Below, in pieces: positions 26,632 to 30,598 of a stretch of DNA of 34,197 nt. Made by a program: the position numbers and the translations under genes. Position 1 is the first letter of the stretch; each line of letters begins with the position of its first letter. The DNA is from Ferruginibacter sp. (lineage in GTDB: Bacteria > Bacteroidota > Bacteroidia > Chitinophagales > Chitinophagaceae), in NCBI GenBank assembly GCA_030655145.1, contig JAURWD010000133.1:1-34197 (forward strand), written 5' to 3'. A model generated the notes under the pieces. The model saw only the letters and a list, made by a program, of their open reading frames with translations. It was not told the origin of the DNA and searched no databases.

Positions 26632-27324
26632 ATGAATTTTGGAAAAGAATTTGAAAAATATGCGGTTAAACACCGTGGGATCAGTAGCAATACTTTGGAC
26701 GGATACATCAAACACAACGTTACCAACCTTACTCCCAATATCATTGAAGAACGCCCCATGAACATTGCTGTTATGGATGTTTATAGTCGCCTGATGATGG
26801 ACCGCATCATCTTTATGGGATATCCCGTAACTGATGAGGTCGCAAACATCATCACCGCGCAGTTTCTCTTCCTGGAGAGTACAGATCGCACCAAAGATAT
26901 CCAGATGTACATTAACTCTCCCGGTGGAAGTGTGTATGCAGGTCTGGGTATGTATGATACCATGCAGTTTGTTACGCCGGATATTGCTACCATTTGCACA
27001 GGTATTGCCGCCTCTATGGCTGCGGTGTTAATGTGTGCGGGTTCTCCAGGTAAACGTACAGCCCTCAGGCACAGCAGGATCATGCTGCATCAGCCAAGCG
27101 CCGGTGCCGGCGGACAGGCAAGCGACATTGAGATCACGGTCAATGAAGTAAAGAAAATTAAGAAAGAATTGTACGATGTTATTTCTCACCACACCGGTCA
27201 GCCTTTTGATAAAGTCGCATTGGATTGTAACCGCGATTACTGGATGACTTCCTCAGAGGCGAAAGACTACGGTATTGTGGATGAGGTGCTGACTACCAAT
27301 CCCCGCAAAACAAAGAAGGACTAA
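26632..27324 (+). CDS. clpP: ATP-dependent Clp protease proteolytic subunit (canonical ClpP)
   Basis: A 230-residue serine peptidase that forms a tetradecameric chamber fed by ClpX. The catalytic triad is Ser128 (GIAASMAAVL), His153 (IMLHQPSAG) and Asp202 (CNRDYW). The handle signature INSPGGSVYAGLGMYDTMQ is present, and the YSRLMMDRIIFMG segment after the N-terminal axial region matches standard ClpPs. About 45 residues precede this core, probably a propeptide plus the axial loops. A slightly imperfect -7-like motif (around 26580-26588) precedes it. The second clpP lies 117 bases downstream. Confidence 0.96.
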   Translation: MNFGKEFEKYAVKHRGISSNTLDGYIKHNVTNLTPNIIEERPMNIAVMDVYSRLMMDRIIFMGYPVTDEVANIITAQFLFLESTDRTKDIQMYINSPGGSVYAGLGMYDTMQFVTPDIATICTGIAASMAAVLMCAGSPGKRTALRHSRIMLHQPSAGAGGQASDIEITVNEVKKIKKELYDVISHHTGQPFDKVALDCNRDYWMTSSEAKDYGIVDEVLTTNPRKTKKD

Positions 27325-27388
27325 GAAAAGCAGGAGCTTTGTCCGGGCTGCATCAAAAATTCGGCTTTAGTGGCGTCGCACTCTTGTA

Positions 27389-27409
27389 CCGCAGCTCCAG
27401 ATTCTGCGG
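27389..27409 (+). repeat. Hairpin in the leader of the second clpP
   Basis: CCGCAG and CTGCGG form a perfect 6-bp stem with a 9-base loop, 32 bases upstream of ATG 27442. There is no T-run, so it is not a terminator. It may affect mRNA stability or processing between the two clpP genes. Confidence 0.35.
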
Positions 27410-27441
27410 ATTCAATTAACAATAAGAATAAAAAAGATAGT

Positions 27442-28068
27442 ATGTATATCAATAGCAACTACCGTACACGGTTCAACGATGAAGAGGAAAATCCACAGGA
27501 AACGCCAGAGAATCCAATGGAGAAAATGGTAAGCAGCTGGCAGTTCGACAAAAAATTTATTGAGCAACGCAAGATATTCTTATGGGGTGTTGTCGATGAT
27601 AAAAGTTCTAAAGACATTACGGCCCGCCTTCTTTACTTAGAAGCAATCGATCCAGGAAAAGAGATCACCTTTTACATTAATAGCCCAGGCGGCATGGTGA
27701 CAAGCGGCATGGTTATTTATGATACTATGCAGATGATCACCTCACCCGTAAGCACCGTGTGCATGGGAATGGCTGCGAGCATGGGTAGTATCCTGCTCAG
27801 CGGTGGTGAAAAAGGTCGTCGCTTCATTTTTCCAAATGGAGAAGTGATGATACACCAGCCTAGCGGTGGTGGACAGGGCACAAGTGCTGACCTGGAGATC
27901 ATGGCCCAGCAGATGCAAAAAACCAAAGAATTAGGTGCTCGCATTCTGGCGGAAAACTGTGGTCAAACCATTGAAAAAATATTGAAAGATTTTGACCGTG
28001 ATTATTGGATGGACGCCGGTGAATCGGTGAATTATGGAATTGTGGATGGCGTGTTGAGTAAATTGTAA
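27442..28068 (+). CDS. clpP2: Second, divergent ClpP proteolytic subunit
   Basis: A 208-residue ClpP paralogue with an intact triad: Ser113 (GMAASMGSI), His138 (VMIHQPSGG) and Asp187 (DFDRDYW), plus the handle INSPGGMVTSGMVIYDTMQ. It differs from the first ClpP in the N-terminal region: the axial-loop and YSRLMMDR segment is replaced by FDKKFIEQRKIFLWG after an acidic/Pro-rich lead (NDEEENPQETPENP). It could form a mixed ClpP1-ClpP2 particle or a separate one. ATG 27442 is chosen because it follows an A/G-rich leader; a GTG at 27370 in the same frame would add 24 low-complexity residues and absorb the hairpin at 27389-27409. It is followed by a strong terminator. Confidence 0.93.
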   Translation: MYINSNYRTRFNDEEENPQETPENPMEKMVSSWQFDKKFIEQRKIFLWGVVDDKSSKDITARLLYLEAIDPGKEITFYINSPGGMVTSGMVIYDTMQMITSPVSTVCMGMAASMGSILLSGGEKGRRFIFPNGEVMIHQPSGGGQGTSADLEIMAQQMQKTKELGARILAENCGQTIEKILKDFDRDYWMDAGESVNYGIVDGVLSKL

Positions 28069-28085
28069 TTCTACGGTGTGTAAAG

Positions 28086-28118
28086 AAAAAGCTTCATCGT
28101 TCCGGTGAAGCTTTTTTT
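28086..28118 (+). terminator. Terminator after clpP2
   Basis: AAAAAGCTTCA pairs with TGAAGCTTTTT (11 bp) over a 9-base loop, followed by further T residues, 18 bases after the clpP2 stop. A GTG at 28105 that would open the next reading frame sits inside this stem and is not a plausible start. Confidence 0.88.
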
Positions 28119-28140: not shown

Positions 28141-29226
28141 ATGAAGTTTGAGGAAATCATTAATGCAAAACGCTCCCTTCAGTCGGACCGGCCGTTGATG
28201 CAAAAGGATGCAATCCCGGTAAGTGACCCTTTGCATGAATACCTGTTAAAGAACGGCAGAAGTACACCCCTACCGCTTGCTTACTCAGACCTTGTTTATT
28301 ACAGCCATTCAAATGTTGTTCGCGACCAACACGGTAAGCTCACGCATTGGGAAACGGCCATTTTTGAAAAAGCAGATCAACAAACCCTTTACCCTGCCTT
28401 ACTTAACACCTTTGCATTATTACATACCGGATTGGAAGCCACCGCCGCTGAGCTTGAAATTGTGCAGGTTGATTTTTGTGAGTTTGGAAACAGCGTTCCT
28501 TTCCGCATAAAAGTCAGGGAGCAGTCTTCTGGAAAGGTCCAACAGTTTTACATCAAGATCGCCGACGCTTCCCGCATTTATGGGCTTGAATTGGAGCAAC
28601 TCCTGGCACCGGATCCCACCAATTTTTTATATGATAACAATACCCTCGTCGAAGCACATATTCCAGGCATGCCCGGCGATGTATTTTTGAGCGAGTACCT
28701 GCATCAATTACCGACCGCAACCCAAACCCAAATAGCAGCAGAATTTGTGAGTTTCAACGAACGATGTTTTGCAAGGTTGTTGGGTGATATGCGCAGCTAC
28801 AACTTTGTGATCGCTCAACACCCTGGACCAAATGAGCTATATTTTTTTCAACCGATCGATTTCGATCAACAGTCTTACGAAGGCAGAAAAAATTTGTACC
28901 TGCCCCAGTTTTACAAAGAAAATCATGACTATGTGGAACTCGTGCTAACTGCGCTTACCCCCGATCAGGTGGTCGGGTTGCAATTGAAGGAGCGGGAGCG
29001 CTTAAAAATGCAACTCACCGGCAATGTCTCCCGGGTAGTTCACTTGCTGGATTGCATGTCCAAAGACGAATTGTCAGAGGCTTACAAGGTGAGGCTCCTG
29101 CGTCGGGAACTGGATGAGCACTTTAAAACGGACGCCTTTGCACCTTGCAAGTCGATGGGTGAGTTGGTGAAATGCCAGTTGATTACTTTGCTCGGATCCG
29201 ACATTTTTGAGCAGGCTCATAATTAA
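28141..29226 (+). CDS. Uncharacterised protein with atypical kinase-like features, between clpP2 and clpX
   Basis: A 361-residue soluble protein that I do not recognise by name. Several features resemble the HipA/aminoglycoside-kinase fold: a strand pair and loop VDFCEFGNSVPFRIKV, a following strand FYIKIAD with Lys139, acidic residues at 150/152 on the next helix, a hinge-like LVEAHIPGMPGDVFLSEYL, a catalytic-loop-like LLGDMRSYNFVI with Asp216 and Asn221 at the standard five-residue spacing, and FFQPIDFDQQ with Asp240 where a DFG-type Asp would be. No sequence family is claimed; this is by eye. Start set at ATG 28141 because the earlier GTG lies in a terminator. It sits between clpP2 and clpX, with 112 bases before clpX. 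Confidence 0.8.
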   Translation: MKFEEIINAKRSLQSDRPLMQKDAIPVSDPLHEYLLKNGRSTPLPLAYSDLVYYSHSNVVRDQHGKLTHWETAIFEKADQQTLYPALLNTFALLHTGLEATAAELEIVQVDFCEFGNSVPFRIKVREQSSGKVQQFYIKIADASRIYGLELEQLLAPDPTNFLYDNNTLVEAHIPGMPGDVFLSEYLHQLPTATQTQIAAEFVSFNERCFARLLGDMRSYNFVIAQHPGPNELYFFQPIDFDQQSYEGRKNLYLPQFYKENHDYVELVLTALTPDQVVGLQLKERERLKMQLTGNVSRVVHLLDCMSKDELSEAYKVRLLRRELDEHFKTDAFAPCKSMGELVKCQLITLLGSDIFEQAHN

Positions 29227-29290: not shown

Positions 29291-29298
29291 TATCTTTG
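29291..29298 (+). promoter_or_regulatory. -7 promoter motif for clpX
   Basis: TATCTTTG fits TAnnTTTG, giving a leader of about 37 nt to ATG 29339. The leader contains AGGAGA about 17 nt before the ATG. It makes clpX independently transcribed from the clpP genes. Confidence 0.6.
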
Positions 29299-29338: not shown

Positions 29339-30598
29339 ATGGCAAAACAACAAACTTTACACTGTTCTTTTTGTGGCCGAAGCCGCGATGAGGTGAAAAT
29401 TCTCATTGCCGGGCAGGAAGGTCATATCTGTGAGAACTGTGTGGATCACGCCCAGGAAATAATCGGCCAGGAGCTGATGATCTATCCCGAGGCGAAGCAG
29501 AATTCAGGAGGCAGCGGAGGAAGTAGTGGAACACACAAACTAACTGTTAAGAAACCAATCGAAATAAAGAAATTCCTGGATGAATACGTTATCGGGCAGG
29601 ACGATGCGAAAAAAATCCTCGCGGTCGCTGTATACAATCACTACAAACGGTTGAACCAAAAAGTGGAGAATGATGTAGAGATTGAAAAAAGTAACATCAT
29701 AATGGTTGGTGAAACCGGTACGGGTAAAACCCTGCTGGCGAAGTCTATCGCACGCATGTTGAACGTGCCCTTTGCGATCGTAGATGCTACCGTGTTTACA
29801 GAAGCAGGTTATGTAGGTGAAGATGTGGAGAGTATGTTGAGCAGGTTGCTCCAGGCTTGTAATTACGACGTAGCTGCAGCTGAAAAAGGAATTGTGTTCA
29901 TTGATGAAATTGATAAAGTTGCCCGTAAAAGTGACAACCCGTCCATAACCCGCGATGTTAGCGGAGAGGGTGTTCAACAAGGCTTACTCAAATTGCTTGA
30001 AGGAACTGAAGTGTTGGTACCACCGCAAGGCGGACGGAAACATCCTGAACAAAAACTTGTGAAGGTTAATACTTCAAACATCTTATTTATTTGCGGTGGT
30101 GCTTTCGACGGCGTTGACAGGATCATCGCCCGCCGGGTGAACACTCATGCTATCGGGTTTAGTGTAAACAAAACCCTGCAGGAATTTCAGCAAAAAAACC
30201 TGTTGCAGTTTGTGAATGCGGTTGACCTGAAGCAGTTTGGTTTGATTCCGGAACTCCTGGGTCGCCTGCCGGTGATCACATTCTTAAATCCACTGGATGC
30301 ACCCACTTTACGCAATATTCTTACCGAGCCAAAAAATGCATTGGTAAAACAATTTACCCGCTTGTTCGAGATCGAAGGGATCGAGCTCAAATTTGATGAA
30401 CCGGTCCTAGATTTTATGGTGGAGAAAGCGCTGGAATATAAACTAGGCGCAAGAGGTTTGAGGAGCATCTGTGAAAGTATCTTAACCGACGCGATGTATG
30501 AATTGCCTTCTCAAAAAGTAAAAACTTTCCAGGTAACGCTGGAATACGCACAACGGAAGTTCAACACCAGCAAAATGAGCATGCTCAAAGTTGCCTGA
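29339..30598 (+). CDS. clpX: ATP-dependent Clp protease ATP-binding subunit ClpX
   Basis: A 419-residue AAA+ unfoldase that recognises, unfolds and feeds substrates to ClpP. The N-terminal zinc finger has Cys9, Cys12, Cys31 and Cys34 (HCSFCG and CENCVDHA). The AAA+ core has Walker A GETGTGKT, the pore-loop motif GYVGEDVES and Walker B VFIDEIDK. The IGF loop that docks onto ClpP is visible in THAIGFSVN. The C-terminal small domain has the sensor-2 sequence LGARGLRS. A Gly/Ser-rich linker (SGGSGGSSG) lies between the zinc finger and the core. Length is normal for ClpX. It is followed by a terminator, then pta after 182 bases. Confidence 0.98.

Follow-up and report, generated by a model that had tools for sequence, protein, structure and literature searches.

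The PI3K/PIKK fold is familiar mainly from large signalling kinases of eukaryotes. In the ClpCP system of Firmicutes, a gene near the clp genes encodes McsB, which is a guanido-kinase-type protein. A catalytic-loop motif, DxH or DRH, is described for PI3K-type kinases in excerpts of PMC4550811 and PMC7619004. The LanM dehydratase CylM is a bacterial protein with a PI3K-like kinase fold and, according to an excerpt of PMC4550811, without clear sequence similarity to lipid kinases. CylM carries the DxH motif, capping helices, a KA domain and a cyclase domain. The protein described here resembles CylM, as far as that excerpt goes, in its predicted bacterial PI3K-like kinase fold, in the absence of clear sequence similarity and in its set of Lys, Asp, Asn (at +5) and Asp, whereas it has DMR in place of DxH and no second domain was recognised by Pfam in its 361 aa.

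The gene encoding this protein lies in a window (the whole stretch of DNA that was analysed, 34,197 nucleotides of a Ferruginibacter sp. contig) that contains the following features.

26632..27324, + strand: clpP1 (PF00574)
27442..28068, + strand: clpP2 (PF00574), starting at ATG, with a second possible in-frame start, GTG at 27370, upstream
28084..28118, + strand: intrinsic terminator-like stem-loop with a T run, in the gap from clpP2 to the kinase gene (-18.9 kcal/mol, z -6.64, equalled by none of 200 shuffles)
28141..29226, + strand: coding sequence of the homologue with a predicted PI3K-like kinase fold, 361 codons and a stop with an ATG start, assigned from homologues and a model
28204..28440, + strand: conserved N-terminal part before the kinase core, residues 22-100 (K22, Y34, L35, R40, Y48 and W70 invariant in alignment A1; helices and strands in the model)
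28555..28575, + strand: putative beta-3 lysine and K..D..R motif, residues 139-145, KIADASR, comparable with KxGDDLR of PI3K/PI4K kinases
28783..28803, + strand: putative catalytic loop GDMRSYN (D216, R218, N221), comparable with GDRHxxN
28855..28866, + strand: IDFD (D240, D242), at the place of the Mg-binding HIDFG, with letters nearer to the IDLD of APH-type proteins
29291..29298, + strand: TATCTTTG, a match to the sigma-A -7 box TAnnTTTG, upstream of clpX
29339..30598, + strand: clpX (PF06689 and AAA families)

A preliminary description of this DNA had reported a 361-residue open reading frame with K139 in FYIKIAD, a hinge-like stretch (LVEAHIPGMPGDVFL), D216 and N221 in GDMRSYNFVI and D240 in IDFD, located between clpP2 and clpX. 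All of these elements were found at the positions given, and the Pfam gene order around the gene (trigger factor, two CLP_protease, ClpX, Pta and acetate kinase) agrees with the location. An alternative in-frame GTG start at 28105 would yield a protein of 373 aa, but the ATG at 28141 is favoured because the closest homologues begin at the same position, with a common N-terminus of the form M-x-F-x-x-I-I-N-A. The opposite strand of 28141-29226 contains many stops in the single frame that was read.

The product is probably a free-standing and active atypical kinase with a predicted PI3K/PI4K/PIKK-like fold, belonging to an undescribed bacterial family and encoded by a unit of its own outside Clp function. 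A literature search by motif strings and words, thin on subscription journals, retrieved nothing on this kinase family.

The family occurs widely among Bacteroidota and within one order that contains Verrucomicrobiaceae. Members were detected in 33 of 98 related genomes and, phylum-wide, in 80 of 296, a count that includes G343 with its fragments only, as well as in 31 of 57 genomes of the order that includes the genome of locus L106 (Prosthecobacter debontii), each at E up to 0.001. That order is probably Verrucomicrobiales, and the profile scores in it are above those of many distant Bacteroidota. An old transfer of the family between phyla is possible. The fragments in G343 (C1:3158145-3158410) are two short pieces of the family gene that do not share a frame; the genome is a single contig, and a gene remnant is likely. 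A pattern scan of GTDB contigs (species genomes) identified at least 594 stretches, of which at least 585 encode relatives; the 80 loci kept include Pontibacter, Hymenobacter, Rufibacter, Mucilaginibacter, Chitinophaga, Saprospiraceae and Verrucomicrobiaceae among their hosts. No family match was found in phages or plasmids, and none of 23 pattern matches in viral contigs encodes a relative; a mobile-element or phage origin was rejected on these grounds, the genes being chromosomal.

Two alignments were used. Alignment A1 contains 30 of 38 loci, the window included (L006, L008, L009, L011, L012, L014, L034 and L035 were left out for redundancy), and alignment A2 contains 73 of the 80 GTDB-scan loci and the window (L046, L052, L056, L059, L068, L095 and L101 were left out for the same reason). 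The aligned members are stand-alone proteins of about 333-372 aa.

A second copy of the gene is present in the genome of the window, at G000:C105:10256-11257 (L031:7248-8288), beside a gene that looks malic-enzyme-like by eye and has a PTA domain. Two copies were found in 5 of 98 genomes (G000, G019, G045, G047 and G051). The clp-linked copies of the two-copy genomes form a fast-evolving group in the tree (support 100/98), and the window branch has a length of 1.0; both P0001 and L016 are on long branches, and the exact point at which they join is uncertain. Departures at columns conserved at 95% or more number 17 of 95 in the window protein and 15 of 94 in L042, and at most 3 in every other row; the median over the rows is 1. 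The long branch, these departures, the second copy and the absence of a TAnnTTTR box before the ATG would fit a window copy that is a decaying duplicate of the second copy, a reading that is compatible with a kinase family and is here considered rather unlikely. The 361-codon frame is intact, the full catalytic set is retained in the fast-evolving clp-linked copies including that of the window, and in each of the other four genomes with two copies the clp-linked one has an open frame as well. Either relaxed constraint or a new role may lie behind the fast clp-linked copies. Estimation of dN/dS gave a value for one of six pairs (L002/L003, dN 0.056, dS 2.1), and the other five were most likely saturated.

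The window protein gave no match in Pfam, NCBIfam, PADLOC or the PDB sequences, and no match to PF00454, PF01636 (APH) or PF07804 (HipA_C) at E up to 10. Among the members of A1, matches at E up to 1 extended to 17 Pfam families, led by Aegyptin_C (0.00089, in 3 of 30 members). The NCBIfam search with 38 members (A3) gave eight families at E up to 0.1, each in one member, including the FomB kinase (0.023), and the family profile gave eight matches among PDB sequences (E 0.11-1.6), mostly ribosomal protein L29. Aegyptin_C, FomB, L29 and the other weak library matches were rejected as chance, being scattered and present in no more than 3 of 30 or 1 of 38 members. The PADLOC defence-system scan of three members gave no match. 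A weak match to PI3_PI4_kinase (PF00454, E 0.0036, below the cut-off) occurs at another locus of the same genome (G000:C39:20149-20337, L149), and the PF00454 search of this genome matches that locus only and not the kinase gene.

Profile-profile comparison by hhalign gave scores of 16.0 with the PI3K-type profile (9 of 30 shuffles as high) and 18.5 with the APH profile (6 of 30); shuffles scored as high in 19 of 30 cases with HipA and in 20 of 30 with protein kinases. When four controls were used for each profile, the PI3K-type, HipA and protein-kinase scores fell within their controls, and the APH score stood above its own (13.0-16.8). This null result is a failure of detection and not a disproof because the profiles are shallow, with an effective number of 2.6 for the query and only four sequences in the PI3K-type profile. 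As no credible sequence match to a named family was obtained, the protein is called PI3K-like in its predicted fold, and membership of the PI3K family is not claimed.

The predicted kinase fold is the firmest part of the assignment. AlphaFold2 run on A2 for the window protein produced a bilobal kinase (pLDDT 88.9, pTM 0.86), and a second AlphaFold model, of a Flavobacteriales homologue that is 41% identical to the window protein, is a bilobal kinase as well (pLDDT 87.1). The kinase assignment of the preliminary description is thus upheld by two predicted models and by the invariant Lys/Asp/Asn/Asp set, and the structure prediction and fold search that it had proposed returned a kinase fold and not an unrelated one. 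In the first model K139 closes a strand that leads into a helix, the loop D216-N221 comes after a pair of helices, and IDFD after a pair of short strands. The resulting order, beta-3 (K139), alphaC, beta4, beta5, hinge, alphaD, alphaE, catalytic loop, two strands and IDFD, is that of kinases, and it fits the PI3K-superfamily layout given in an excerpt of PMC7619004.

VIA-align placed CtTel1 (Z 13.7), ATM (13.6), PI4KIIIb and Vps34 (both 13.5) closest to the first model, and all 50 matches listed are PI3K, PI4K or PIKK proteins aligned over 251-281 residues with rmsd 4.0-5.4. For the second model, Vps34 gave the top Z of 13.4 over 272 residues (rmsd 4.8), and all 50 matches listed again are PI3K, PI4K or PIKK. 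The aligned span among the matches listed for both models is 247-284 residues. VIA-align re-aligns and re-ranks the best 1000 matches of Foldseek, and the preference for PI3K stems from that re-ranking. Foldseek itself placed Vps34 first (1.1e-4) and mTOR second by E-value for the first model, 48 of the 50 matches listed being protein-kinase-type proteins with a TM-score by query length of at most 0.38. The APH and HipA folds are not among the 50 VIA-align matches listed for either model, an absence that excludes neither.

Thirteen residues (K139, D142, R145, E152, E171, H173, D180, D216, R218, N221, D240, D242 and Q243) are invariant in all 74 sequences of A2 and all 30 of A1. The conservation of Lys139, Asp216, Asn221 and Asp240 across homologues, which the preliminary description had asked to be checked, therefore holds throughout. 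The spacing of Asp-x4-Asn with a later Asp, on which that description had leaned, is worthless alone as evidence because the pattern D.{4}N.{5,40}D occurs in 440 of 844 non-family ORFs of at least 200 aa; it also occurs in 2547 of 3700 shuffled family proteins. A three-part pattern, K..[DE]..R / [GK]D....N / [IV]D[FL], was composed after the sequences had been viewed, so that its counts illustrate rather than test: it is present in 74 of 74 family members and in 4 of 4 PI3K-type kinases (mTOR, VPS34, PI4KB and ATM), in none of 3 HipA, 7 APH or 6 protein kinases, in none of 844 background ORFs and in 2 of 3700 shuffles. Background ORFs containing IDFDQQ were excluded from the motif counts, and the sequences of the four PI3K-type kinase domains are identical to those of PDB chains.

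Comparison with the PI3K superfamily (Vps34, PI4KIIIb, mTOR, ATM and Tel1) shows likeness in the predicted fold, in a beta-3 Lys within K..D..R, in GD....N (3 of 4 PI3K-type kinases, 0 of 7 APH) and in ID[FL]. The set of beta-3 Lys, catalytic Asp, Asn at +5 and Mg-binding Asp that is characteristic of the superfamily has its counterparts in K139, D216, N221 and D240 in 74 of 74 sequences. The family differs in its small stand-alone proteins, in the absence of a PF00454 match and of a profile-profile signal, and in two motifs: R218 stands at the place of the His of DRH, giving DMR, and D242 at the place of the Gly of DFG, giving DFD, both in 74 of 74 sequences, whereas Gly is present in 4 of 4 PI3K-type kinases. 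The motif D....N followed by [ILV]D[FLW][DE] is found in 74 of 74 family members, 6 of 7 APH and 0 of 4 PI3K-type kinases. Read as sequence signatures, the N-lobe motif and the glycine of the catalytic loop favour PI3K, and the Mg motif favours APH.

An APH-type or HipA-type kinase acting on a small molecule or a protein, in place of a PI3K-like one, is unlikely. It would account for the shared Asp-x4-Asn spacing, for the IDFD with its second Asp and for the highest hhalign score among the four kinase profiles, although that score is reached by a fifth of the shuffles; moreover, among 13 related genomes, 11 have APH-like proteins and 2 have HipA. The APH type (PF01636) is like the family in Asp-x4-Asn and [ILV]D[FLW][DE], but the absence of a profile match and the absence of both K..[DE]..R and GD....N from all seven APH sequences argue against it, as do the listed structural matches, within the limit given above. 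The HipA type (PF07804) shares Asp-x4-Asn with a later Asp, but it has no profile match to the window protein, lacks the motif context, K..[DE]..R included, in 3 of 3 sequences, and has no HipA_C match in the genome of the window; the neighbours within the window are clpP2 and clpX, with no HipB-type antitoxin adjoining. The HipA/APH label of the preliminary description accordingly finds no support as regards HipA and partial support, through the IDFD motif, as regards APH, which stays in contention. The PI3K rather than APH character of the kinase is likely.

Catalysis by the PI3K-like family is likely, judged from the conserved residues. ATP would be held between the two lobes, K139 of the beta-3 strand would hold its phosphates, and D216 would orient the acceptor hydroxyl. 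R218 would take the place of the DRH histidine of PI3K-type kinases, and N221 and D240, perhaps with D242, would bind Mg. The stretch after IDFD is very conserved (consensus QQSYEGRKNLYLPQFFKEN), which suggests one conserved acceptor, either a small molecule or one particular protein. It is conceivable, if doubtful, that the PI3K superfamily has in this single-domain family, conserved across Bacteroidota and a verrucomicrobial order, a free-standing bacterial relative that acts on one conserved substrate. Bacterial PI3K-like folds may extend beyond CylM. A small stand-alone family without a Pfam or NCBIfam name would offer a simple system for the working and origin of the PI3K fold, and the putative kinases hint at a phosphorylation reaction still to be described in two phyla.

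A pseudokinase, or a kinase fold used for another reaction (AMPylation, polyglutamylation, or phosphorylation and elimination as in the LanM CylM), would be consistent with the changes of DRH to DMR and of DFG to DFD, and CylM, a bacterial protein with a PI3K-like fold, does more than phosphorylate according to the excerpt of PMC4550811. The expected Lys, Asp, Asn and Asp are all invariant (74 of 74), and the window protein has no recognised second domain. This reading is improbable, and the pseudokinase named in the preliminary description is not favoured, since no catalytic residue is missing.

The neighbours of the gene vary by lineage and include aldolase-like and cysteine-synthase-like genes, a LytS/LytR-like pair and others (names assigned by eye). 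In distant Bacteroidota, 20 loci were fetched, of which 19 were readable; no kinase ORF was found at L191. At six of the 19 readable loci (L176, L180, L183, L185, L188 and L192), which belong to four families, a bshA-like gene on the same strand immediately precedes the kinase gene; among the 19, bshA is the same-strand neighbour shared by more than one family. It is the first gene of bacillithiol synthesis. Three of the six bshA-like genes were scanned, and all three match TIGR03999 (BshA) above the cut-off. This recurrence suggests, as a lead only, that thiol or malate-sugar metabolism might supply the acceptor. The presence of the bacillithiol pathway cannot discriminate because BshC (PF10079) is nearly universal (291 of 296 genomes of the phylum and 92 of 98 relatives). 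A metallo-beta-lactamase-like gene (by eye) lies downstream on the other strand at four of the distant-Bacteroidota loci. A proposed BshB beside bshA was rejected, as the gene looks by eye like another protein.

A clp gene adjoins the kinase gene at 15 of 138 family loci, in 14 genomes, some of the loci being short-flanked and the 138 including apparent duplicates (L039 of L010, L042 of L020 on the same contig, and L082 of L021). Among loci of at least 15 kb the count is 2 of 73. Ten of the 15 clp-linked loci, the window (L001) among them, are in the tree, and all ten fall in one 15-row clade (support 100/100); the others are L006, L008, L011 and L012 from the genus of the window, and L042, which is the contig of L020. 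In the same clade, L007, L010, L013 and L017 carry the gene between amidohydrolase-like and ligA-like genes (names by eye). At L006, clpP1 and clpP2 were seen with no clpX within 1.5 kb, and at L040 an extra gene lies between clpP2 and the kinase gene. The gaps in the window are 72 bp between clpP2 and the kinase gene and 112 bp between the kinase gene and clpX, all three genes being on the same strand.

A terminator-like hairpin with a T run is present in the gap between clpP2 and the kinase gene at all 12 clp-linked loci that could be read; shuffled gaps gave 0.34 on average and 2 at most. Three of the 15 loci were omitted from this count, namely L019 (clpP2 stop misplaced), L040 (intervening gene) and L042 (contig of L020). 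The consensus terminator scanner missed the hairpin of the window, probably because the stem takes in part of the T run. At 10 of the 12 loci the kinase ATG has a loose TAnnTTTR box no more than 20 nt away (shuffles: mean 0.5, most 4), but at only two of the 12 (L005 and L018) is there the strict form TAnnTTTG, which is the sigma-A box according to an excerpt of PMC9723704. A box so near the ATG would imply a very short leader; leaderless mRNAs make up only 5.5% in Flavobacterium psychrophilum, according to the same excerpt. Neither form of the box precedes the kinase ATG of the window copy, so read-through from clpP2 may occur there.

The clpX gene was surveyed at 30 loci in the genus, the best-scoring of 53 genomes with a match among 59 searched; three clpP2 distances (about 800 bp) in this survey were overestimated. 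The kinase gene precedes clpX at 11 of these loci, clpP2 lies upstream without the kinase gene at 17, and neither is present at two. The box TAnnTTTG occurs within 80 nt of clpX at 27 of the 30 loci (shuffles: mean 2.06, most 6), namely at 10 of the 11 that have the kinase gene and at 17 of the 19 that do not. In some genomes, then, the kinase gene sits between the clpP2 terminator and the clpX promoter, and in others it is located elsewhere.

A Clp-associated kinase that marks ClpXP substrates or adaptors, as the preliminary description had proposed from the gene order, would explain the same-strand arrangement with short gaps beside clp genes, but it is very unlikely given the terminator-like hairpin ahead of the gene, the clpX box that is found with and without the gene, the loci at which clpP2 precedes clpX with no kinase gene, the other location of the gene in close relatives and the small share of family loci with a clp gene. 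The neighbourhood survey for clpP/clpX linkage thus weakened the proposed link, which extends to one genus-level group of Chitinophagaceae only. The loose analogy with McsB found no support; the Clp neighbourhood is limited to that group, and the window protein has no Pfam match of any kind. The place between the Clp genes looks incidental, and the kinase gene appears, from its flanking signals, to be its own transcription unit and not functionally part of the Clp operon. The Clp reading is thereby corrected, as gene order alone would have pointed to the wrong pathway.

The two clpP genes of the window form a tandem (26632-28068) whose products are 37.6% identical by tblastn, and both are present at clp-linked loci, where clpP2 is mostly less conserved than clpX.
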